A DNA stretch of 23,274 nucleotides from Saccoglossus kowalevskii (taxonomy: Eukaryota > Hemichordata > Enteropneusta > Harrimaniidae): the NCBI RefSeq assembly GCF_000003605.2, contig NW_003137828.1, positions 292,043 through 315,316 on the forward strand, given 5' to 3'. A model generated the notes under the pieces. That model did no database searches and was not told the DNA's origin. It saw only the letters and a list, made by a program, of their open reading frames with translations. The translations under genes were made by a program, and so were the position numbers. Positions 6,350-22,255 of the stretch are shown here, in pieces. Within the stretch, counting starts at the first letter, position 1, and every line of letters begins with the position of its first letter.

Positions 6350-6528
6350 ATGGCAGCCATGGTGCAGAGTGGTGTGTTTCGTCGCTTAGTCCAAATAGCA
6401 CTGTGTTTTCTGTTTATTTCGATATCTCTTGTCAAACCTGACGACGAACAGAAATATGTTCTCGACGCTGAAATGTTTGCGAAGGCTGTGAAAGATAAGG
6501 CTCATTTCATCATGTTTTTCGCACCGTG
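6350..6528 (+). CDS. TXNDC5: exon 1: signal peptide and start of thioredoxin domain 1
   Basis: Codes residues 1 to the first two bases of Trp60. It gives the signal peptide, then the first beta/alpha units of domain 1 ([23 protein letters not shown]). The donor is TG|GTAAGT, splitting the tryptophan codon of the APWC motif in phase 2. The open frame extends back to an ATG at 6239, but the predicted promoter and the signal peptide both favour 6350. Confidence 0.9.
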
Positions 6529-9500
6529 GTAAGTAGAGTTACCTGTACGCCTACAGCTCTAGTAGTGCCTGGTATTTTGGTCTCCAAAAGTTTTTGTACA
6601 ACCAATATTTTGTCAACATTCCGTCTTTTATATTGTATTATCAACTACGTTGTTGTTTGATGCTAACGTGAAGAAATAATTTTTTTTCTGTTTGAAAAAT
6701 CTGGCCTTTTTAATACCTGCAGTTTTCTTGAAAACTGCTAGCACAGTCGACTTGAACGGTTGTTTTGTTAGGGCCAGGTACGGTGAATAGTCGAATGCAA
6801 CGTGGCATTCGAACATTGGTTGCTGGTTACTACAAGTTTCCATTTGTATTGAATACATAGTCATTTCAAAGTGTGGACATTTGTACTATACTAGAGTCAA
6901 CATTTAAATCGGTACCTCCTAATGGTTCAAACAACGTAATGGCAACATAATTGTCCTTGTTAGGTCTGGACGCTTTCGATTAACAGTGTCAAACTGTGTA
7001 TCGCCTATTCACTTCGAACAGTTGTTGAGAAAAATAAACATAAGCCCATTCTGTTTTGTATGTTTTCCAGTATTTTTAAATTGTATTTAAATTAATCCAA
7101 TCATTTAGCTTTGCCTTGTGCCGAGTTACATACCATATGGTAGGTTACATAGCTTTGTTAGAACTCCCTGATATTGTGGCATGTCTACTGCACAATTAAA
7201 TTTAACAGTCCTAATTTGGGTTTGTAGCTCACAAATAATATATAATGAAAAGAAAACATGATCACACACAAATGTGCATTTGGATGGATGGAGTTGCGTG
7301 TGAAGAGATTTAAATCCAGCATCGATGACTGCATTGTTATTGACCTTACCTGTAGTTTTCCAAAATACCAAAGTGCAAAAGATTATATTATAGTAATTTT
7401 GTTCTTCTTTGGTAGCTAACCTACTGTAAAATACTTTACTTTCGCTTGGAATTTATTTTCGCTATTTTCGCTGAAGGGATGATTCAGTGAAAATAGAATC
7501 CAGCGAATATATTTCACATTAAACTCATCAAAAATCAGTAAAAATAAATTCCATACAAAATGCCCAAAAAGCCCTTTCAGCGAGAATAAAGTATTCCACA
7601 GTATTTTAATAAAAAAAGGAAACAACATATTTTCAAAAAAGGCAGAGTGGTGGAGGAGGTAAGGAAAACTTGATATTTTTTCTAAATATCTTTGCAGAAA
7701 AAAAATCAAAACAATAAATAAAATTGATCCATGCTGATTATGCATGAACTAGTAGTTTTTGGTACAAATCTGCAAAATAAATAGCTAATTTGCTTACTAT
7801 GTAAATAATTGCAGAACTGTTTTAATCAATTTATTGTAATTGCTGATTATCGTAAAAGTGAAACTTTTCAGTTTTTAATTTGTTTATTTAGTAACGCTGA
7901 TTAGCCTATTCTGCACTATATTACATCCAATTCTTAGAACTCATTGTTTTACTATTACCGGGTAAATATATTCACAGTTGCTATGCACACAAATTAGTGA
8001 GAATGTTACATCAAGTCAATAGTGCACATTTTTAGTCTATAATTACTATAAGTTAATACTACCAGTACATGTATGAATTCAGATTTACATTCATTGCAAA
8101 TATTACTCATAAAATATTTTTCCTTATGATATATCAAAATTGTAGAAAAGTAGATTTATCCCTGTAGTGCAATAATACCTATAACACATTGAAAACTGCT
8201 GTACTAAAAAGGGTGTGGTTTATATTCTTATTTGGTAACTTGTACAAAGCTAAGAATAAATGACAATTATGTTTATCAAAACAAGTGGAAACATGCCTTT
8301 TAATATAACAGTTTTGAATACATGTGTTCCTGTGCCTTTTTACTGTATTACAAAGAGTGTGTGAATGGGTTCTTTTGGTCACCTACCTAAGCTTTGAATA
8401 AAACATTTTCAGTGAGTACTTTAACCAAGTAAAATTGAATATAAAAAAAAAAATAGTGAGACAGATTTCAACTCATGAAAACTGGAAATCCAGTTACATT
8501 TATGTTTTTAATGTTATGAACTAAAAACAATTGAAAGTAGTACTGTAAAAAAATTTATTTTAGCTGAAATTAATTTTCACTGAAAAAAATTTGTGGACAT
8601 TTTGTGTGGAATATATTTTCACTAATTTTTGGCAAGTTGAATGTAAAATATTGGAATAACTGTATATTCGCTGGATTTTATTTACACTGAATCATTCCTT
8701 CAGCAATAGTAGCGAAAATTAATTCCAAGCGAAAATAAAGTATTTTACACTATATATTTGTACCTGTGTGGTACATTGGCGTACAGAGGGTGTGAAGTTT
8801 TATAACTCTACTGACTGCTCATAGCATGTGCTATTATGTTGGGGGAGAAGTGCTCTATTCCATGGGATAACAAAAACTGCTTTTCTCGATACGCTTTAAA
8901 AAACAGTAAACTATTTTCACATGATTTCATTCCCTGTAAGATCTCTAATTGAGTTCTTTAATCTAATGAATAATTGTTATTCTTGGACTTTTTGAATACT
9001 TAGTGAAGCTTACTGAATTGTTATAATCCGACAGTATTATTGAGTTTCACTGCAACCATATTGGTGAATAGGAGCAATTAATATATTCAGTGGATGAGTA
9101 TTTCAGATTATGTAGTTATTAAAAATATGCTAACGTACGTCCAGCTTTGCTAAACCCTTGTTGGATTTACACAGCCTCGGGTTTTGTTAATAATCTGCAG
9201 TTCTTGCATGAAAATAAGTTCTCAAATTTTTATTTCTACATTTTTTTGTGCTAGGATTCTGGATCTTTCAAAACAAATTTTCTCTTTCAAAATTTTAGTC
9301 TAGTATTTTGCATATTTAAATTTATTGTTTAACAAGTTTTGTTAATTTTGAACCAAAAGTACATAATTTTGTAATTTTGTTACTATTCAGTAAGTATTGG
9401 TGTATATTGAGAAAATATGAAAAAAAAGCTATGCGAGATGTTTGTAAAATTTGACAAGTTGATTTTGCTTTTTAAATTAATAAACTTGTGTATTGCCCTA

Positions 9501-12500
9501 TCACATAGAATTTATGCTCTTTCTAGGCACGCTACTTCACAAGATATTCCAATTAATATGATTAAAAATCGACTTCAGCATAAAGTGCTTAACCATTCAA
9601 AAAATAAACCAGCATTTTTTCTAGAGAGAAATTATGTTTAAAATTAATGACGAAATTATAGAAATGTACATTAGAAAATTTGATGCAAAATTTTGCATCA
9701 AAATTCTGTGTTGAAAAAATGACATTAAAAACGATTACTTTTGTAACTCAACCTTGCATTCTTTCAATACATTCGCAATAAATTAAAAAAAATTGTATAC
9801 ACAAGGCCATGCAAAAATTATATTCATTTATTAATTATTATATCTCAATTTTTCATGTTTATTGTGTAGCCAGGTTTCAATTTCCCAGTCAATCATTATA
9901 GTGCAACTAATTTAAATATATAAATTGAATCAGAGATGGTGGTAATACATATGGTCGATTCTAATTACATTGTGTTATTAAGCCCTGCCTCCCTACCACA
10001 GACTTGCATAATTACAAGAGACGTATGTACATGTGCGTTTTAGGCATACATGTAGCTGCATTAATAACTGTTGTACAGTATGGAAACACATGGGTGTTTT
10101 TTGACCATATGGTGTACAAGATGAGCATTTCCTGAAGGCTTACCCCAAGGCACTATTTGGGTATTTCATTTCCAAATTATGCTAGTTTTGTTTCTGGTAG
10201 ATCACACCAAGTCTGACTAGTTTGATGATCAAGTAATATTTGACAATAATTAATTAAAAAAGCCTTTATAAAAAAAATAATTACATGTAAATAAAGTCAT
10301 CATAAAAAAAATAATGAATAGCTTGGTTTTCACTGTGTTCGCAGGACTGTGTTGATATTAATAACTGCACATTAATTCCGATTGATGAATGAAAAAAATG
10401 CAACAGCCAGTGTAGGTCATTTCTTGTATTCTATTCAAGGCTTGTTGACCAGTAAAATTATGAATATTAAAAACAAGTTTTACATTGGTCTCCAATTTAC
10501 CACAGTAATTATCAGGATAAAAAAAATTAGAAAAACAGTGTGAAATAATACACTGACGGGTAAATTGAGGGAAAATAATTCCCATTATCACGCCTTTGGC
10601 AGTTTAGTATTAAGCTGACCACCATATGGAGGAATCAGAATTATCTAAATCTGAATGAAGATCCGCTTAAATGACAGCCTCCAGTGTACTATATGCATGC
10701 CAAACGTGTACTGTCACAAAGATACTTGACAAAAATGAATAAATGCATTTAAAAAAAAAAATGCAAATGAAAATAGGGGGAGAATATCAACGCCATTTTG
10801 AATTTTTTAACGTACAATGTTTCTGCTTACTACCACCACATACTAGTATCTTATAAAAGAAATGATGCAGGTTAGTTGCGCCGCCACAGTTAAAATAGAG
10901 AAATGTTCAGCCAATCATATTGCTTCTTCTATCTAGGATAGGGAATTATATTTTGTTTTCCATGTATGATAGATCACTAGAATGCCCTCCTTACTCAGTT
11001 TCAGGTTGATTATGGTTAGGCTGAAAAAAATCAATATATTAGTAGTCAGAAATGGCTTTATTTTAGTTTTCTTCCTTTTTTTTGCCCCAATGGACCAACT
11101 TTTAACAAGTATTTTATATAACAGTCCTGTCTTTAATACAGATTTGAGATTATGAAAAAATTACCACCAATTGCAAGTTAGTCGTAACAGTTTTCTTACA
11201 GTGATGTTCCGGAAAACCACTACATCAAATTAAGTAAATGAACCAAAATTATTTCTGTGGATGGAGAATTTCCATGAAAATAAAATAGGCTTGCATGTAG
11301 CCATGGTGGATTATACTACATTGTTTTTTTTGGCCAATTATCAACCTGTTAAATCACTTGGAAAATGGGAAAAATTATTTTGCATTATGACATTTTCAGC
11401 TAGATTCGTGTACGCTTTTCAAAATAAAAATATGTATCTTCAATAATTTTTTCTAAATGTATTTGAAAATGGAAAAACTGTCTATTGAATAACATTGTTA
11501 GACTAGGCCCCCAGAGATGAGAGAACAAACATGTTTGATTTGTTGAACTAAAAACTTACTGGTAACTGCATTACAATATAAAAGAAAAGTGCATTTTTAA
11601 ATCAGAATTCAACGATCTGCATGCTAAAACTGAAATCATGTGTAAATATTGATACACAAATGTATTTTGTATGTTCACAAATACAACCATTTGTCCTTAC
11701 TATTGTTCCTGGATGAATACAGGAACCAGACAGGTGGTTAACAAGCAGTGGCATAGAAACCAAAGGAGGCATTCTGAATAAAACTCGTATTTATGATTTT
11801 TGAAATCAAAAATAGAATGAGGTCAAAAACAATTGCTGGTACATCTATATCAATACTATTTCATCCTAGTACAATAATAGAAAAATTCGCGTTTTCATGC
11901 ATATGTACTATTGTTGTCAATTACCAGTGAGGATTCTTGTGGCTGTTTTGAATGAAATTGAATTAACAATTAATGTTTTTATTGTGTTCCAGGTGCGGTC
12001 ATTGCAAACGACTACAGCCAACATGGAATGAACTTGCTGAAAAGTACAACAATAATGAAGATAGTGAAGTTAATTTGGGCAAGGTATGTACATGCACTTA
12101 ACAAAATCACCAAAACAGTTTACAATGCTGAAATGTCTTGACTGCGAGTGCCTATTTTTACAATAATGCCAGTTTCAAATGTTCAAACGATTAAAAGGAT
12201 GGTTTGAATCCAAATCTGATAGTACCCCATAAAATCTGTATTAGTAGCCACATCCCTAATAGAAGTCGCACCAATTTATTTTGAATAATAGAGAACCAAA
12301 GATTCATCATTATGTGTAGGTGCTCTAATAGAAGCCACATCCCCTCTATTGCATTGTACCATTTTAATAGAAGCCGCGGCTTCTAATACAGATTCTACAG
12401 TAGTTTATATGTTAGTACTTGTAAATTGCATAAACTCTATAATACTTTTACTGTTCTCTCAAGATTTTTCTGGCCAATGGCATTTCTGTTTGAGATCATA

Positions 12501-15500
12501 TACTTGTGCGGATTTCAATATGTGCATTCTTAGGCGTGTGTAATTATATCTCTTCTGTACATTTAGGTTGATTGCACAGTGGAAACTGCACTGTGTTCTG
12601 AATATGGAGTTACAGGCTATCCTACGTAAGTGTATTCTGTATTTATATTTATTTTCCCGCAGTGTGGCCGCTTACCCATTTGTGCGTCACTGATTAGCAG
12701 TACGCCGCTGGAATCGTACAGTTGCTGCACAACATTGATCTTGATATATGGTTCCCATGTTAAGTTTCCTTCCACTGTCTTCTTCTCTGGGCTAATCTGG
12801 TGATTGTGTGCCAGTTGTGCCCCATCTTTTTTATTTCCTGTTCCCATATTCTATGCCAGGTATTTCTTGGCCTTCCTCTATTTCTTTTCCCCTGTGGATT
12901 CCATTACAATGCTTTATTCAGTGTAGGACAAATCCAAGTCAATTCTCTTTTCTTCAGCTGATTTGTGTGAGGTAGCTATTTTGCTTGTTCCCAGAGCTTT
13001 GTTACTAGTCCCATTTGTGTTCCAAATTTAATAGACTCTTTGGTATTTAGGACATTCTACCGACCAGCTTCCTTGCGGCTTTTACTCGCCATCTTCATCT
13101 GAGGCCCCATTACTTTTAGTTTTTGTTCTGAATTCGGCAGTCTGTTTTTCTGTAATCCAAGTTATCCACTTAGTGGGGGATTAGCCTACCAAGCGTCACA
13201 AGAGCCCTGTTAGTCAGCATTAACTGTTTACACCTTCCACGATGATGATGTAGGGTTAGGGTTATGATATTCTTTGAGGTATGGTTTCCATGTTGCGTAT
13301 AGCATGTGTACAAATTTCATGCATAGGTTACAGCATTTTAGTAGAAGTTCATGCTTTTGAGTACAGGTGGTTGCTCAAGACCCTTAACTGCAAAGATGTG
13401 TAGATATCTATCTTATTATCCCTTAGCATATTGCTGGTTGGGGATATATTGGTTAGCAGCGTCTGTTTGTGTGTATGTATGTCCAGAGTTGTATCAGTAC
13501 TATTGCAGATATAAATATTCAGTGTTGTATTTAAGACATTGCACCCTAGAACGTATTTAATCACCATGTGGTCATGTGACCTCATTAAAAATGTATACCA
13601 TATCTGTAGCAAATAGACTTAACCAGAGCAATTTTGAAGACACATGATCTAATCAACATATTTAATGACCATATATGGTCTTGTGACCTCAATGAAAATG
13701 CATGTGCCTAATATGGATACCATAATATGAATAGTTGATTGTAATTTTTACAATTGCCAATGAATTTTCATCAAACTTTAGTAGATTAGAATGTAAAGTA
13801 CCAACGCTTATCTAATAATATTTTTGGACCTACTGTCTGTTACCTAAACGACAAGTCTTATGTGTACTTCCTGCAATACATGTACTTGTTGGTAGAACCA
13901 GGTCGGTTGTGGTAATTTAATTTATAAACTCAAATCTTGCACAGTGTGTTAAATTCTACACTGTATTCCTCACTATAATAATTTACCAAACTGCCTCCTT
14001 TTTTTCCCCCCATGTTTTGATTTTTTAAATTATAGGGTGGATTTATTGGTGTTGACAATAACTTGTTTTTTTTTATAATATGCCATCTGACTTGTTTAAA
14101 AATCTGCATAGAAATTGCAAAAATTTAAAAAAACATTTCTGTTAATCCTTAGAATCAGTAAAGTGTTAATAATTTGTGTGTGCATATATATAGAAGTTGG
14201 TGTTAGCTCCAGGTTGATTACATTTATTTCAACTAGAAATTAGAAGTACACATTTTTCACAAAAATGTACATTTTTGTACAGCATAACTTTCGCAGTGTC
14301 CTTTGTGCAATGCATGTACACTACACATTATTTGCATCTTGTTTTGTATATAAATAAACCTGTGTAAAAAAACTATATACAAATAGTGAAATCACCAGAT
14401 ATACTGGTATATTTTATGCTAGCAATATTCTAACTGTAGAGGGCGCTAATCACTCCTATAAAGGATTGTATCCTCGGGCAAAGCTATGTCATAAGAATTT
14501 CCAAGTTGCTAAGTCGCACACCACTGTACCACGTATTCCTATGGGCTCTGAGCGTGCTGCTAAGGAACCTCAAGCGATGATCCGGTGAAAATTTGAGAAA
14601 ACAGGAACTCAACTTTGAAGTAATCCTGAACAATCAAATCGATGTGCGTTACACACACAGGGCTAATCTTGTTCAGGGGAGTCTCAACAATGTATTCCAA
14701 AGTACCGTTTTCTGAGAGTTTTCGGCTTTTGTTTCCACCGTGATGGTTGCCATGCGCTGAAAATGCCCGGATGTCCGCCCCCAAGAATTGTATTGTTCCT
14801 CAATCCTTTCCCTTGATACAAAAAGTAAATAAATACATTTTTTTTATTCACTCGGTTATAATTTTGCTATTTTATCTAATAAATAATATCAGCAAAACTA
14901 AATACATGTGAATGCTAAGTGAGTATTTTTAAGTTAGCATTAAAAATCAAGTTAATTGAATTAATAAATAAGAATCTAAAAATCAATAAGATTGTGGGCA
15001 AGTCTAACAATAATGCTGACAGACATTACTTACTATACTGTCCATTCTACCTGGTTGTTCACATCTGTCAAAACATTGCTTTTTGAGACTTGTAAGATTG
15101 TAAAGTACAAACTAGATGAATGCTTTGTGGTTAGAATTTGTACTGCTCACTTAAAATTACATACAACAGTGCCTGACACAGTGCACATTCATTTCAGACT
15201 GCGAGGGCTCACTGCACTGCACTGCTAGTGCACCTATATATACCTTGTACTGCCTGTGAACCTACAGATACTGTGTTCTGTTTAAGGCACATTGTATGGT
15301 AACTGCTTTGGGACATGCACCAAATAATTTAGTTTACCAAAAATCATTTTCTAGATGTTACATATTAGCTACTTGTGATGGAATTTACCTACTTACGGAT
15401 TCCCTGCTAAAACAGGCTGTTGCTCTAGAAAGTATCCTGTATCATGATCAAGTTCAGATCAGTTGTTGAATTTCCTTTGAGACTTGAAATGGGATTTGCA

Positions 15501-18500
15501 TAGTTTGTCAGGTATACAGTTTAGGTTCATCTACACCAGCGGTTATATATTAAAAATGAACAGAGCAGCCTCAACAAATTTCCATTCTACTAAAAACGAT
15601 TTTATTTAAAAAAAAAAAACCTTGGAGTATTTGTAGTTTTTTTTTTTCTATCCAATCATAGACAAAAATAACAGAAAATGAAAAAAAAACACATCCAAGA
15701 CGAGAAAATGGTTTGGTCAGAGTGTAAATATGTGCGTCAAATGAGGTCAATTTCAGGGCATGGACCGAGAGCATCCGCAGAACCCAGAAAGTAGTTTGCG
15801 CATGCGTATATTCCGCTTCATTATTACAACCAACTGCTCTGCCATACTACTGTCAGATTATCAATTATGTTTCAGTGGGAGGGTTTTGGGAAAAAACCTA
15901 AAAGAATTAAGTTTTTTATCAGACATCGATCTTTTGATGTCGTCCCTTAGTATAGTTGTACATAAAAGACTTTATCTGCCTGGGCCATTTTATCAAAATC
16001 AGTCAGTCCTGGAATCGTATTATAAATATATTTTTTTTTGTCTGATATAGATTAAAGTTTTTTAGACCAGGTGAAGAGGCGGTAAAATACCAGGGCAAGC
16101 GTGATGCAGAAACATTGGAGAAATTCATGAAAGAAACTTTGGATCCTTCTACTAAGGTGCGTGTGTTGGAATTCAAACAAGAGGATGACGCGATGTATAG
16201 CTATGCAATTCGATGCAGATTTAATTTGATTTAACCTAGTATTTACCCTGTTGTGTATATTCAGTGTTGGTCATTTGCTTTACTTCCTATAATAGCATCT
16301 AATAGAGCTAGCGTATCTTAATGGCTGTTATTGAACCTCGTCTAGTCTAGTGGTACAATAAGTGTAAAAGGAGAAAATATTGAGTGTGCTTAATTTAACT
16401 TGATATGACTTTGCATGGGTATCGGCTGGCTGCATTGTTATGAATTAAAACTATATGAATGGCCTTTGTGCCACCCATTTGTCACAGAAGCATAAAGTTT
16501 GATGTACAGAAAATGTGCATTATTTACTGAAGTTATAAATTGCAGAATAGTCCGTTATAATATCTTTCAATTTGCTACTGAATCTGAAAAATCTTTCTTT
16601 CATTCTGTTCGTCTTCGTGTGTTTTCTCAAGTAGCCAATATTTGATAATTGGTCAAGAAACCCAACCATATTTTTCACTGTGTCTAAAATGTATTTGCAT
16701 TGTTTATTGTTGGTCTTTAGGAAGAACCTGAGGTGGCAGCCACTGGACCACCAGAAGCTAAAGATGGTTTATACGAGTTGAACGCTGGTAACTTTGACAA
16801 ACATGTAGCAAAAGGTAGCCACTTTGTAAAATTTTATGCTCCTTGGTGTGGTCACTGTAAACGTCTTGCTCCAACCTGGGAGGAACTTGCAAAAGACTCA
16901 GACGGCAAAGTGACTATCAATAAGGTAAGTCTAATTGACAATTCAGAATACCTGCCCAAGTCATAGATGAAAGGATAGGTATATGCATTGGAAAAATGTT
17001 AGTGATTTTACATTCGCGAGCACGTCTTTTTCACGAATTTAGCGAGAGAACTAATTCGCTAATTCAAGATGTCGCTAATGACTTTATTATCAATTCAAAA
17101 TGGCCGCCAAACAAAGAAATAAACAATGACAAGAAAGATTCGCTAAATCAACATTTCGCTATTACGTCACTTTACCACAATTCGCTAAAATTGCATGCTG
17201 CTTTTTCAACATGTTTTACAGTATTTTTTTCTTTCTTGTTACTCAACAAATTTATCCAATCTTATTCAAACTCTGATTCAATAATTAAACTTCAGTTGTT
17301 TTGTGACTAATGTTTACTTTTTAAAGCAATAAATATAGATATTATTACTACTAGGTAATATTGGGTTCCATATTTTTGTAATTTTAGTACTCAGATATTT
17401 TATTTAAATAGTGGTAAATGTTTTTTTTGTTTATACTTGATGTCCACTCAAATAGTTATCCCTTCTCACAGTACAGTCCTAGACCAACTTTTTTGGGAAT
17501 ACTATCCAAAAACATGGGTTAGATTAGTAGTAGTGTTTTGGAGGCCAACTTTGGGTATTTAAACAATAACTGGAAATTATGAAATTTTCATCTTGGAAAT
17601 GTTATTATGCAACAGAAAAGTGTGTTTCTGTCATTGTTTAGACCAAATTGTTTCTCACAAGGTTGATGTTCCCAGTTTTGGTGGCAGACCTACTTCAATT
17701 TTTTGTTTGTTTACTGTACTGAATTCCCAATGTAATTTCCATTATATTTAACCATTTTTTTCCTCCCAGATTTTGCCTGGTTTTATGTATTTTAAATTTT
17801 GGACGAAATGTACATAATTTCCTATCCTCGGGGGCGGAGCTACGTCACAGACGTTCCACGTTGCTAAGACGCGCACCACTGTAACATGCATTTCTATGGG
17901 CTCTTTGTGCGCTGCTGTGGAACGCCGGTCGAGCCGGTGAAAATTTGAGAAAACAACACAAACTCAACTTTGAAGTAATCCTGAACAACCAAATTTATAT
18001 ATGTTACACTCGTAGGGCTAATCTTGTTACACTGTTCAGAGGAGTCTCAACAACCATCCCCAAGTATCGTTTTCTGCCAGTTTTGGGCCTTTGTTTTCAC
18101 CGCCGCGGGTTGCCAGGCGGTGAAAATGCCCGGATGTCCGCCCCGAGGATTGCTACAGATCTTTATCAAAATTTGATAAAAATCTGGAAACAGTTTTGGA
18201 TTTATTTTGTGACCAAAGTTTATCTCTTAGAGAAATGAACCAGATTTTGTTATGAATGCATTTCCAGATTGATTGCACTTCTGAGAAACCGGTGTGCGAT
18301 AAATTTGAGGTAAGAGGATACCCAACACTTCTTTTCATCAAAGATGGTCAAAAAATAGAGAAATATGGTGGAGCTCGTGATTTGGATGCTTTGAAATCAT
18401 ATGTTGAGAAAATGCAGGCATCTGGTAAAGAAGCACCTAAGCCTGAAAAGGTTAAGAAGGTAGAGGAAAAACAAGAGGTAAAAAAAGATGAAGACAAACC

Positions 18501-21220
18501 ATCAAAGGTAAATTACTTGTATCAAAGCCAGTAATATATTTACCCCTAATGACAATGTTAACAGTAGGTTGAATATCAGCGCAAATTAAATTCATATGGC
18601 TAACTTGCAAGCTAACTTGAAAATCCAATGTTCTAATAACCCAATCAAGTTCTCCGACATGGTTGAAGCAACTGAGATTTGTATGTGTAATTTAAAACTT
18701 ACTTTGTATAGTCACAATAATGTTGTACTCTAAAAACAGACAACTTAGCCATAGTACATGCATAAACAAAAATTAAATAGTATAAAATGAAGTGGCACCA
18801 TAGAATGCAAGATTGCCACAAAATATAGCAAATCGTTTTTGTAGCAGATCATTTGATAGCGCCAATAAGTCTCCGTACGAATCTTGTTTGTGTGCACTGT
18901 AAACCAAACTATTGAATACAGCGACAATCTATAACATCATCAGGTGGAATAATATGCACATTATCTAAATTATATTTAACTAATTTGGTGTTGCAACAAT
19001 ACAGCTAATCCCCTTTTAATGTTTATATTTGTGAATGATCATTCGGTATATTCTGTTTTATAGGTTGTAACGCTTGGTGAAGATTCTTTTGAAACTGGTA
19101 TAGGAACCGGCCTTACCTTTGTCAAATTCTTTGCACCATGGTAAGTTATTGTCTGGCTGAAGGTAATGCTTCATTCACTGGGCTAATTCCTCTTACTATT
19201 TATAATACTTTGATCTTGGTTCAACTCTTGTGTTAATTTTGTGTAGATAAACATGTACCCAAAAAATCTGTATTGGCTGTAACCTTGAAATAAAGAGGTA
19301 GACTTGACTTGTTGCAAAAAAACGAAGAACATTATATATGAAGCACCCTTCTATAATATTTACATAAAAAAATATATTCAGTCGTGCTGCAAATTATTAA
19401 TTGCGTCATTAACCGTTTTACTCCATTTTCGCGTATTCTTGTGATCACGTGACTTGGTATTTACATAATTTAAAAAAATTGCCATATTTTCAAAGTTTGA
19501 AAAAAGATCTTTATTATGGTATATAACATGTATGGGTAAAATGTATGTTTCAGTCTGTAAATTGAGGCCAAAAAATTGAACCAGCGAACGTATGCTAACC
19601 CCTTAAATAACCCATTAGGTTTACATACTAGTAGTTAATGTTCTATAATCAGGAAGATATTGCGATGGACCTGTAAATGAAATAATTAAACTGGTCCTTG
19701 TTGATTAGCTTTACAGAATTTCAGACTACTAGAATTGAGGGATTTTGCTGACATAATGAAAGTGTCAGTGTCAACAAGTTATAAAAAATTAACTGAAATT
19801 TGTAGGTAGATTGGCCATTATAAATAATCTAGAAACAAAATGAGATTAACTCGATCCTTTTAATATTGCTCCTTACAATTAGCATGTTCTGTTTATAGGT
19901 GCGACGATTGTGATCGTCTTGCTCCAACATGGGAAGAATTAGCTGAGAAAATTGCAAATAACTTACGATTAGCATGTTTTGTTTATAGGTGTGGCCATTG
20001 TAAACGTCTTGCTCCAACATGGGAAGAATTAGCTGAGAAAGTTGCAAGTAAACCCAATATCAAGATTGCTAAAGTTGATTGCACTGTAGATAAAGATGTA
20101 TGCAAAAAAGCAGAGGTAATGTGGATTTGTTTAAAGCATTGGACAGTAGTTTGTGAGTTCTGGTGCACAAGGCAGTGAATATTCTGTATAGTATGTGCTC
20201 CATATAGGTGATTTTCCGTACAATTGTGAGATCTCACGAGATGCATGAAAGACGCGCGTCGAACGTCTGCCGCAAAAATCGAACGATTTGATTTTGAACT
20301 CTAATTTCCTTATTTCGTAGCTCACACTGACCGGCCGATCTTCGACAGAGGAATACTGCTTCCGAATACCCTTACTTAATCGAAATTGCCTATCATCAAA
20401 TGTGGACAGCACATTATTAAGCATGGAAATGTCATTGGCTGCCATGTTCAACATTTGTTTGTTGCATAGCATTAGTTAGTACCAATAGTAATGGTCAAAA
20501 CAAGCTTCACTAACCATACTGAGCGTGTATGTAACTAAAGTGATATCAATGCAAATAAAATAAAATAAAGCACAAACATTTCATTTTTTGTGATCATGTG
20601 CATAGCATAACATTCTTAGTAAAGCTTTTTCAATTTCCATCAATTACGAACGTGCAGAGCATGATTGACGATATGTTCCAAAAAAAAGTGTTTTTATTTT
20701 ATTCCGTGTGTCCATCTCAATATAATCAGATAACTACATCTGCCCAATTATGCAAAACATGTTTAGGTCTTGTATGACCTAAAATAAATCAGATTGCACA
20801 TCACAGAAGAGCTGTCTGAACATAATTTGCATAGTTGAGTGTTATAAGAGGTGTGGTACATCCAGAATTAAAATGAGCCGCTGCTTAAAACACAAAAATC
20901 AACTTTTCATGCATTTTACAAAATAAAAGCTGCACAATTCTTTGCTTGTTCCCTTTCAAAAATGTTAATCGAAATGTAGAAAATGGAAAATCTACCCATG
21001 TTACATCAAAAATGTTACATCAAAAATGTTACATCAAAAGGTTGCTTGGAAAAATTGTCATTGCATGTAATAACTGATCTGTTTATTTCTATTCCAGGTT
21101 CGTGGATATCCAACACTAATTCTTTATAGCAATGGAAAGAAAGTAGATGATTATAACAAGGCAAGAGAATTGGATGCCCTGTACAAATACATTACAGAGC
21201 GCCCCCATGATGAGTTGTAA
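6350..21220 (+). CDS. TXNDC5: TXNDC5-type protein disulfide isomerase (ERp46), nine exons, 401 aa
   Basis: Joined coding exons: 6350-6528, 11993-12083, 12567-12625, 16051-16156, 16721-16924, 18268-18507, 19064-19140, 19989-20115, 21098-21220. The product is 401 aa (human TXNDC5 is 432). Residues 1-28 form a signal peptide with hydrophobic core [16 protein letters not shown]. Three thioredoxin domains follow, each with APWCGHCKR and a cis-proline GYPT: CGHC at about 61-64, 188-191 and 320-323, prolines at 109, 232 and 366. A Lys/Glu-rich linker spans about 264-293. The protein ends HDEL, so it should act in the ER lumen, catalysing disulfide formation and rearrangement in secretory proteins. 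The start at 6350 has a strong context (AACATGG); a second ATG at 6359 also fits. All introns are GT-AG. An upstream alternative acceptor for exon 8 (19899) would give 431 aa. Confidence 0.93.
7422..7603 (+). mobile_element. TA-flanked MITE, copy A (mariner-like)
   Basis: 182 bp with inverted termini: TACTGTAAAATACTTTACTT on the left, and on the right the complement of TACTGTGGAATACTTTATTC, roughly 25 bp with four mismatches. The TA at each end fits a Tc1/mariner-type target duplication. There is no transposase. A second copy in opposite orientation lies at 8541-8752. Internal motifs such as GAAGGGATGATTCAGTG are shared between copies, which shows a common ancestor rather than chance termini. 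Confidence 0.75.
8541..8752 (-). mobile_element. TA-flanked MITE, copy B, inverted relative to copy A
   Basis: 212 bp. Read on the minus strand it begins TAGTGTAAAATACTTTATTT and runs through CGCTTGGAATTAATTTTCGC, GAAGGAATGATTCAGTG and ATCCAGCGAATATA, closely following copy A, then diverges in the middle and ends with a matching terminus. Being inverted relative to copy A about 0.9 kb away, the two could pair in the unspliced transcript. Confidence 0.75.
9679..9702. repeat. 24-bp perfect palindrome in intron 1
   Basis: A loop-free palindrome centred on AAAATTTT with arms TTTGATGC/GCATCAAA. No flanking repeat or known site was recognised. Confidence 0.7.
11993..12083 (+). CDS. TXNDC5: exon 2: CGHC active site of domain 1
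   Basis: 91 nt, residues 60-90. It starts after TTCCAG with G that completes Trp60, then [22 protein letters not shown] is the typical PDI-family redox site. The donor is AAG|GTATGT, phase 0, falling just before the VDC strand, the same place where domain 2 is split between exons 5 and 6. Confidence 0.93.
12084..12566 (+). other. intron 2 (483 bp)
   Basis: GT-AG, phase 0. About a third of it is the inverted-repeat element at 12233-12394; the rest shows nothing recognisable. Confidence 0.9.
12233..12394. mobile_element. 162-bp terminal-inverted-repeat element with repeated TAATAGAAGCC motif
   Basis: AATCTGTATTAGTAGCC at the left end matches the complement of the right end with one mismatch in 17. 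Inside, TAATAGAAG(C/T)C(G/A)C occurs at about 12256, 12327 and 12366, and the last copy forms the perfect palindrome TAGAAGCCGCGGCTTCTA (12368-12385). There is no coding capacity. It is a MITE by structure; superfamily unassigned, as the target duplication is unclear (TA at most). Confidence 0.6.
12567..12625 (+). CDS. TXNDC5: exon 3: VDC strand to cis-proline loop of domain 1
   Basis: 59 nt. Encodes [19 protein letters not shown] and the first two bases of Thr110. Acceptor ATTTAG|GTT, donor AC|GTAAGT (phase 2). The small size is normal for this gene family. A decayed LINE fragment begins only about 30 bp beyond the donor. Confidence 0.92.
12650..13250 (-). mobile_element. decayed LINE fragment, C-terminal end of ORF2
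   Basis: On the minus strand one frame reads KALWEQAK, then a stop, then [17 protein letters not shown], a stop, [18 protein letters not shown] (about 12852-12905), then [20 protein letters not shown] (about 12770-12835). The WxPxGKRxRGRPxxTW block followed by a tryptophan and an AQxRxxW block is characteristic of the region after the reverse transcriptase in many animal non-LTR retrotransposons (established knowledge). In-frame stops show it is dead. The 5' limit is approximate. Its 3' end lies about 30 bp from the exon 3 donor. Confidence 0.7.
13554..13703 (+). repeat. direct repeat, about 40 bp at 105-bp spacing
   Basis: TATTTAATCACCATGTGGTC and the following GTGACCTCATTAAAAATG recur 105 bp later as TATTTAATGACCATATATGG with GTGACCTCAATGAAAATG. 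The second copy contains the palindrome GACCATATATGGTC (13667-13680). Origin unknown. Confidence 0.6.
14259..14278. repeat. 20-bp palindrome ACAAAAATGTACATTTTTGT
   Basis: Perfect palindrome; a third overlapping arm (GTACACATTTTT, 14246-14257) allows an alternative hairpin with AAAAATGTAC. Probably simple AT-rich sequence. Confidence 0.6.
14472..14785 (+). mobile_element. inverted-repeat element, copy 1 (possible hAT-type MITE)
   Basis: 314 bp, same family and orientation as 17826-18148. The left end reads CCTCGGG, the right end TCCGCCCCCAAG. Flanks GATTGTAT (14464-14471) and AATTGTAT (14786-14793) agree at seven of eight bases, fitting an 8-bp target duplication as in hAT elements. Shared internal blocks include TGAAAATTTGAGAAAACA, CTCAACTTTGAAGTAATCCT and AAATGCCCGGATGTCCGCCC. 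This copy is the more decayed of the two. Confidence 0.7.
16051..16156 (+). CDS. TXNDC5: exon 4: C-terminal half of domain 1
   Basis: 106 nt, residues 110-145, reading [19 protein letters not shown] and on to the last helix [14 protein letters not shown]. Acceptor GATATAG|ATT; donor AAG|GTGCGT. Matches the last two strands and final helix of a thioredoxin fold. Confidence 0.92.
16157..16720 (+). other. intron 4 (564 bp)
   Basis: GT-AG, phase 0. I see no repeat, gene or other structure in it. Confidence 0.9.
16721..16924 (+). CDS. TXNDC5: exon 5: linker and first half of domain 2 with CGHC
   Basis: 204 nt, residues 146-213, phase 0 at both ends. A short Pro/Glu-rich linker leads into [13 protein letters not shown], then [19 protein letters not shown]. 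Domains 1 and 3 both have an intron inside the Trp codon of APWC; domain 2 lacks it here. Donor AAG|GTAAGT. Confidence 0.95.
17011..17223. repeat. TTCGCTAA-rich block, possible decayed MITE
   Basis: TTCGCTA or its complement recurs at about 17040, 17055, 17072, 17139, 17155 and 17181, unexpected for such AT-rich DNA. The right edge ends TTTTACAGTA, the same terminal bases as the TA-flanked elements in intron 1 (complement TACTGTAAAA). A matching left terminus is not convincing, so element status is tentative. Confidence 0.35.
17826..18148 (+). mobile_element. inverted-repeat element, copy 2 (possible hAT-type MITE)
   Basis: 323 bp, the better preserved copy of the family at 14472-14785. Termini CCTCGGGGGCGGA and TCCGCCCCGAGG are inverted repeats with one extra G. 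A perfect internal hairpin TTTTCACCGCC/GGCGGTGAAAA lies at about 18095-18126; it is broken in copy 1. The element is clearly more GC-rich than the surrounding intron. Flanks do not show a clean target duplication. No protein was recognised in it. Confidence 0.75.
18268..18507 (+). CDS. TXNDC5: exon 6: second half of domain 2 and charged linker
   Basis: 240 nt, residues 214-293, phase 0. Begins [20 protein letters not shown], ends domain 2 at LKSYVEKM, then a 30-residue lysine/glutamate/proline linker ([20 protein letters not shown]) that is probably flexible. Acceptor TTTCCAG|ATT; donor AAG|GTAAAT. The acceptor lies only 119 bp after the end of an inverted-repeat element in intron 5. Confidence 0.93.
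18508..19063 (+). other. intron 6 (556 bp)
   Basis: GT-AG, phase 0. Nothing recognised inside. Confidence 0.9.
19064..19140 (+). CDS. TXNDC5: exon 7: start of domain 3
   Basis: 77 nt, residues 294-319, [19 protein letters not shown] then VKFFAPW. Donor TG|GTAAGT splits the Trp codon in phase 2, exactly as at the end of exon 1. It can join in frame to either of two acceptors, 19899 or 19989. Confidence 0.92.
19141..19988 (+). other. intron 7 (848 bp; 758 bp if the upstream acceptor is used)
   Basis: GT-AG, phase 2. The last 118 bp include the upstream unit of the 90-bp duplication. A CLEAR-like GATCACGTGACT lies near 19442. Otherwise AT-rich with nothing recognised. Confidence 0.9.
19871..20050 (+). 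repeat. 90-bp tandem duplication spanning an intron-exon border
   Basis: Two abutting 90-bp units, 80 of 90 positions identical. Each contains the last 28 bp of intron 7 and the first 62 bp of exon 8. A central stretch of 37 coding bases is identical. Five of the ten differences fall within the 13 bp covering the CXXC site and the following residue, where Gly, His and Lys are all replaced by Asp in the upstream unit. Confidence 0.97.
19899..19988 (+). other. TXNDC5: duplicated exon-8 head with CDDC, optional in-frame extension
   Basis: Part of the upstream copy of a 90-bp tandem duplication (19871-19960 and 19961-20050). It keeps a branch-point-like CTTAC, a pyrimidine-rich stretch and TTTATAG|GTG, as good as the downstream acceptor. 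If used, exon 7 would join in frame to [20 protein letters not shown], then [10 protein letters not shown] (translated from the second copy's intronic acceptor region), then the usual CGHCKR. There is no stop and the length is divisible by three, so the result is a 30-residue insertion. There is no donor in the copy, so it cannot be a separate cassette. Whether it is used is unknown; it may also be a non-functional duplication. Confidence 0.55.
19989..20115 (+). CDS. TXNDC5: exon 8: CGHC active site of domain 3
   Basis: 127 nt, residues 319-361: [20 protein letters not shown], then [19 protein letters not shown]. Domain 3 has no intron before VDC, unlike domains 1 and 2. Donor GAG|GTAATG. The acceptor at 19988 is the downstream one of a duplicated pair and is the choice that restores the family's normal length. 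Confidence 0.92.
20131..20472 (-). other. antisense open frame, unknown, weak candidate exon
   Basis: 113 codons on the minus strand in a locally more GC-balanced patch. Its third ATG (20445) is in AACATGGCAGCC, a strong start context, and reads [21 protein letters not shown] donor-like TCTC|GTGAGA follows at 20238. I recognise no domain and no promoter, and a frame of this length can occur by chance, so this is only a candidate first exon or remnant of an inserted gene. Confidence 0.15.
20998..21039 (+). repeat. three tandem copies of ATGTTACATCAAAA
   Basis: 14-bp unit repeated three times without change in the core, just upstream of the exon 9 acceptor. A minisatellite; copy number may vary between individuals. 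Confidence 0.85.
21098..21220 (+). CDS. TXNDC5: exon 9: end of domain 3 and HDEL retention signal
   Basis: 123 nt including [22 protein letters not shown] brings the cis-proline, then the last helix and [16 protein letters not shown] at the C terminus returns proteins to the ER through KDEL receptors (established knowledge); vertebrate TXNDC5 ends KDEL. Acceptor ATTCCAG|GTT. Confidence 0.95.
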   Translation, partial: VRGYPTLILYSNGKKVDDYNKARELDALYKYITERPHDEL

Positions 21221-21720
21221 TTCATCACCTTCAATATTTTAATTTTCTGTTAAACAGATTTCTTTTAATATTTTTTTTTTTTAATACAATTGTTTAACTC
21301 CCAAATTTTGTAGCTTTTTGCTTTGTTTCGTTATTTCTTCAAAAAGGTATAGATTGTTTTTTCAAGTAATACTGAGTCAAAACTGTTGATACTAAATAAG
21401 TAAACTTGTGATATGTCATAAACATGGTATATATTTATGTCAAACCACTTATTTTCCTAGCTGTTTTTTAGACTGCATGTGTACAGCCACATTTTTATAT
21501 CATGTCATTCAGTTTTCTCAGTATTACATGAACAAGGATGAAACAAATGCAACTCTGCGTTACTGTTATTTCTTGTTGCGACTGTTGAAATGTTTTTTTT
21601 TTTGTTTAATCTCTATTTTTAGTATAATTTGCTTTAGAAACTGAATTACCATAGAAAACCCTGAAAAGAAGCCAAATGTGTACTTTTTAAAATCAAGTTT
21701 AAAATACATTTGCTTTTTCT

Positions 21721-22255
21721 TAGCACTAGCCAAATCGAAATATTATTTGAAAACAAGTAGCGCTGAAGTGTTTTCATTTGAACATTACCCACATTGAAAT
21801 TCTCATTTTAACACCTTGCCTTCTAAAGTCTCCACCAACGCGATATAAACTGTTTCATCTTGGCACTAACCAAATAGAATTATTTGAAAACAAGTAGCGC
21901 TGAAGTGTTTTCATTTGAACATTACCCACATTGAAATTCTCATTTTAACACCTTGCCTTCTAAAGTCTCCACCAACGCGATATAAACTGTTTCATCTTGG
22001 CACTAACCAAATAGAATTATTATTTGAAAACAAGTAGCGCTGAAGTGTTTTCATTTGAACAATACCCACATTGAAATTCTCATTTTAACACCTTGCCTTC
22101 TAAAGTCTCCACCAACGTGATATAAACTGTTTCATCTTGGCACTAACCAAATAGAATTATTTGAAAACAAGTAGCGCTGAAGTGTTTTCATTTGAACAAT
22201 ACCCACATTGAAATGTTCTCGTTTTAACACCTTACTTTCTGAAAGCCTCCACAGA
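21721..22255 (+). repeat. four tandem 137-140 bp repeats, each with a near-palindromic core
   Basis: Units begin near 21721, 21861, 21998 and 22138; the last is degenerate at its end. Each carries GAAAACA-AGT-AGCGCT-GAAG-TGTTTTC (cores at 21749, 21886, 22026 and 22163), with matching 7-bp arms around a self-complementary AGCGCT. Units 1 and 3 have an extra TAT-type triplet that units 2 and 4 lack, while CATTACCC is in 1-2 and CAATACCC in 3-4, which suggests duplication of a two-unit block. The array lies in the predicted 3' UTR and would be transcribed. Confidence 0.93.

Follow-up and report, generated by a model that had tools for sequence, protein, structure and literature searches.

The window analyzed here is a stretch of 23,274 nucleotides of the Saccoglossus kowalevskii genome (contig NW_003137828.1, positions 292,043 to 315,316 of the forward strand) containing a nine-exon plus-strand gene for a predicted TXNDC5 (ERp46)-like protein disulfide isomerase (PDI) with three thioredoxin domains. 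The head of exon 8, which encodes the CGHC active site of the third domain, is duplicated in tandem together with the intron end that precedes it. This is plausibly an alternative 3' splice-site pair, seen in a single genome, in which the downstream copy (copy 2) would be canonical and the upstream one (copy 1) carries CDDC in place of CGHC. We assign a probability of about 0.5 to the whole account, comprising the duplication, partial use of the upstream acceptor, a copy 1 free of constraint, and a tolerated long isoform.

The duplication is real. Tandem Repeats Finder reports an array at 19872-20051 with period 90, 2.0 copies, 90% matches, and 0% indels; a second repeat search returned the same pair, which is far above chance in self-BLAST (E 9e-29). 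Each unit consists of 27 bases of the intron end and 63 bases of the exon 8 head, and the units lie head to tail. Between the two copies there are nine mismatches in 90 bases; the edges are clean, and the longest identical run is 36 bases. A first-pass annotation of this DNA had the anatomy right: a doubled acceptor module, an in-frame extension of 30 residues, CDDC at the APWC position, and CGHC moved by 30 residues. Its counts of 10 differing bases, 62 coding bases per unit, and 37 identical coding bases are each off by one, while the five differences that it placed within 13 bp of the active site are indeed found, at 19902-19914. The features of this region are as follows.

19872..19961, + strand: duplication unit, copy 1; acceptor region of 27 bases and 63-base exon head encoding CDDC (repeat searches, copy alignment)
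19962..20051, + strand: duplication unit, copy 2; acceptor region and canonical exon head encoding CGHC (repeat searches, copy alignment)
19064..19140, + strand: exon 7, ends FFAPW|, donor GTAAGT (splice map)
19989..20115, + strand: canonical exon 8, third CGHC (splice map)
19899..19988, + strand: predicted in-frame extension via the upstream acceptor, 90 bases, 30 residues (splice map)
19903..19918, + strand: perfect 6-bp inverted repeat with a 4-base loop, completed by copy-1 substitutions (stem search, fold)

In searches of the 572-Mb assembly of 4830 contigs, in which only the best candidate matches were scored, the 254-bp interval was found at full length once, and domain 2 of this gene was the only further hit. 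A 51-residue query spanning CDDC and CGHC yielded three matches among 10 scored candidates, namely the present locus together with domains 1 and 2 of this gene. Neither a second haplotype contig nor a further CDDC copy was found among these candidates. The assembly's COX1 match contains seven TGA codons in frame, as in animal mitochondria. Relatives elsewhere were limited to two loci of the bacterium Megasphaera with 34% identity among 70 candidate stretches, and to none of 21 for viral contigs. Within the library and terms searched, no report of this duplication or of CDDC in a PDI domain was recognized.

Exon 7 ends with the donor ATG|GTAAGT at 19140/19141, and both candidate acceptors read TATAG|G, at 19898/19899 upstream and 19988/19989 downstream. 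The reading frame stays open to the stop after HDEL with either acceptor, in line with the first-pass prediction that exon 7 can be spliced in frame to both copies. Use of the upstream acceptor predicts a 431-residue protein in which CDDC lies at 320 and CGHC at 350. By human frequency matrices, applied here and below to a hemichordate, the acceptors of copies 1 and 2 score 9.8 and 10.5 bits, respectively, against 3.3-10.9 for the gene's remaining seven acceptors, and each of the two outscores six of these seven. Judged by matrix score, nothing appears to disable the upstream acceptor. Where an acceptor has been duplicated, splicing would often choose the upstream site, and from the sequence such use in mRNA is likely here as well. 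The two copies do not form a mutually exclusive exon pair, as copy 1 does not end in a donor-like site; the best GT in copy 1, other than the one at its first base, scores 1.5 bits. Each unit also carries an additional AG (19881-19882 and 19971-19972), situated a few bases past the branch-like CTTAC and ahead of the acceptor described above.

The active sites of the two copies have diverged. Three amino acids are changed at the copy-1 site, all to Asp, as had been noted from the sequence earlier, while both cysteines are retained. At all five cluster sites, domain 2 carries the same base as copy 2; domain 1 does so at four of them and departs only at a synonymous Cys position. Copy 1 is therefore the derived sequence for at least four of the five changes. 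Over 15 active-site codons, copies 1 and 2 differ by four nonsynonymous changes and one synonymous change, in contrast to none and seven, respectively, between domain 2 and copy 2 (Fisher P 0.010). This suggests that domains 2 and 3 share a constraint on their CGHC sites, and that copy 1 stands outside it.

The clustering of the differences is less clear. The probability that five of nine fall in some 13-bp window is 0.065 for the 90 bp and 0.052 for the coding part alone, and 0.016 jointly with the long identical run. The proposal that the clustering looks unlike neutral decay is thus weakly supported. A hairpin in copy 1 points to a possible multi-base mutation as the source of the cluster. 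Three of the five cluster changes, spread over both arms, complete the 6-bp stem listed above, and two lie outside the pairs; in copy 2, no arms of at least 5 bases with loops of 3-8 were found. When other bases are placed at these positions, 9 of 243 sets give a like stem, as do 2.1% of 20,000 random nine-hit copies. Such stems occur about 0.6 times per 90 bp in the whole window, so that the hairpin carries less weight. As RNA, the hairpin is mildly unusual: in 41 nt, copy 1 folds at -10.6 kcal/mol (z -1.63) and copy 2 at -5.8 (z 0.12), while the fold of copy 1 is unremarkable in a fragment of 46 nt that contains only exon sequence (z -0.46). Template switching is able to perfect stems of this kind, according to a published report (PMC8794818), but one simple event would probably be insufficient here, because the changes are on both arms; moreover, alternative base sets give a stem too. 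A search for a copied source of the CDDC cluster, using a 22-base core with at most three mismatches, gave a match only at its own locus in the assembly, and the reversed control gave one match too. Elsewhere in the window, the most similar 24-mers belong to copy 2 (19/24) and domain 2 (17/24). Given that exactly these positions were hit, three Asp have a probability of about 0.025 (1/3 x 1/3 x 2/9). Both the Asp triple and the hairpin oppose plain drift, and they compete as accounts of the cluster.

The intron tract of copy 2 is free of stop codons when read as a part of the extension, as the first-pass annotation had pointed out. This is expected with a probability of 0.67 under shuffling, and therefore the open tract is no evidence of function. 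It reads NLRLACFV, resembling NIKIAKVD, the strand next after the native helix. This likeness, equalled in 542 of 13,492 stop-free shuffles (0.040), is treated here as a curiosity.

The history that we favor would have begun with a local head-to-tail duplication of 90 bp that took in the full 3' splice module and 63 bases from the start of exon 8. Its outcome can be read directly in the window, as two near-equal in-frame acceptors, 90 bases apart, behind one donor. The downstream acceptor would yield the canonical protein, whereas the upstream one, used in part, would yield the 431-residue form, in which an additional CXXC-helix segment with CDDC separates APW from CGHC in the third domain. 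Released from the CGHC constraint, copy 1 would have drifted or taken a multi-base mutation to CDDC. As copy 1 appears to have been freed in this way, the cell most likely tolerates the long form as a by-product in which the third domain is impaired and the other two are intact. A tolerated isoform, or a relic, with an unconstrained active site is the most economical view.

Several observations weigh against this account. Domain 1 differs from the canonical copy 2 by five nonsynonymous and seven synonymous changes, and hence the contrast in constraint rests on the comparison with domain 2. The 36-base identical run exceeds the expectation for the coding part (P 0.013), and could reflect conversion or constraint. 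With five random hits, any identical residue triple with both cysteines kept appeared in 63 of 400,000 simulations, and CDDCD itself in none of 400,000, in a post hoc calculation that takes the hits as independent. In addition, all splice scores depend on human frequencies.

Copy 1 might effectively never be present in mature mRNA, its acceptor being skipped, or being joined and then spliced out again in a ratchet-like manner that restores the canonical mRNA. We consider this doubtful. Both units carry TATAG|GTG, so that 19899-19988 starts with GT and ends with AG and thus doubles as a GT...AG interval open to re-splicing. The relaxed active site of copy 1, as compared with its copy-2 counterpart, would fit exclusion. 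In Drosophila, tandem AG/GY duplication followed by intronization of one copy has been described (PMC2891723); the head-to-tail segment with AG|GT and the GT...AG interval of equal length are common to both cases. Unlike in the Drosophila examples, the duplication here includes a real intron end and immediately supplies an alternative acceptor, while the donor is weak and the interval may be no intron at all. Recursive splicing can also result where an acceptor directly adjoins a donor (PMC8605326). The exons treated there similarly have a GT directly after the acceptor, but the regenerated donor is weak in our case. This donor, ATG|GTGCGA, scores 5.4 bits, below all eight of the gene's own donors (6.8-12.5) and barely higher than the ordinary exon 1|exon 2 junction (5.1); re-splicing is thus possible but weak, and by this score the reconstituted junction lacks the competent donor expected of recursive splicing or a new intron. 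With the copy-2 bases the donor would score 6.0, and hence the copy-1 substitutions did not build it; a new donor created by them was rejected on this score. Finally, the hairpin at the start of the copy-1 exon might hinder the acceptor, but the exon-only fold argues against that.

It is improbable, in our estimate, that CDDC is instead a selected, regulated isoform with an acid CXXC module at the place of the active site, be it non-catalytic, reductant-like, or metal-binding. The uniform change to Asp with both cysteines kept, the rarity of identical triples in the simulations, and the resemblance of the insert to one helix-strand unit would agree with selection. However, all these tests are post hoc, four nonsynonymous changes to one synonymous are alone no proof of positive selection, and the insert adjoins the catalytic helix and would probably upset the fold. 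CDDC is a real CXXC variant in quiescin sulfhydryl oxidase (PMC3616962), but there it belongs to the Erv domain rather than to a thioredoxin/PDI domain. A splice-selectable active site, with one pre-mRNA giving either CGHC or an inserted CDDC helix-strand module whose acid site was shaped by selection, seems very unlikely. We also give little credence to a rare haplotype or an error of the assembly: the duplication comes from one assembly in which a second haplotype was not found, but a simple assembly duplication would not readily yield copies with nine differences and clean edges.

If the upstream acceptor is used, the locus would be a clear example from nature in which a single short duplication gives two isoforms that differ at an enzyme active site, with a diverged and a constrained copy adjoining each other. 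One could then test directly how cells select one of two near-identical acceptors, and what an acid CXXC does in a PDI domain. Without use of the upstream acceptor, the duplication is an ordinary relic.

The assignment of the gene relies on the splice map and translation. The joined exons encode 401 residues, counted from the first ATG, which we chose as the start codon of exon 1, with CGHC at residues 61, 188, and 320. The canonical protein ends in PHDEL followed by a stop, that is, with an endoplasmic reticulum (ER) retention signal. Pfam PF00085 matches three thioredoxin stretches (E 3.2e-95, for a query with two wrong residues, 111 and 113). Among the best 60 of 282 matches of domain 3 to solved structures, the only targets searched, the top one is 8eky chain M, Thioredoxin domain-containing protein 5 (E 1.7e-97), followed by PDIA3 (4e-43), these E-values being whole-chain values summed over several domains; the best single-domain scores in the same set are 125.6 bits for TXNDC5 and 79.1 for PDIA3. 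The gene shares with TXNDC5 / ERp46 the three thioredoxin domains with APWCGHC and the C-terminal ER-retention signal, and differs in the doubled exon 8 head and the predicted longer isoform with CDDC ahead of the third CGHC. The remaining exons are as follows.

6350..6528, + strand: exon 1 coding part, ends APW| (splice map and translation)
11993..12083, + strand: exon 2, first CGHC (splice map)
12567..12625, + strand: exon 3 (splice map)
16051..16156, + strand: exon 4 (splice map)
16721..16924, + strand: exon 5, second CGHC (splice map)
18268..18507, + strand: exon 6 (splice map)
21098..21220, + strand: exon 9 coding part, ends HDEL and stop (splice map)

Other repeats are found in and around the gene. 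Introns 3 and 5 carry two copies of a dispersed repeat-like element (14469-14781 and 17823-18144, 78% identical), intron 1 contains an inverted pair (7422-7590 and 8570-8752, 78% identical), and in intron 8 a 14-bp unit is present in three perfect copies (20998-21039). On the 5' side of the gene, a 51-base repeat occurs at 1305-1355 and 2222-2272 (94% identical). The segment 22620-23274 resembles, by eye, a broken reverse transcriptase of a non-LTR retrotransposon, with no Pfam match for its 68-residue open part. About 0.5 kb past the stop codon, there is a tandem array of 137-bp units (21718-22252, 3.8 copies, 94% matches).

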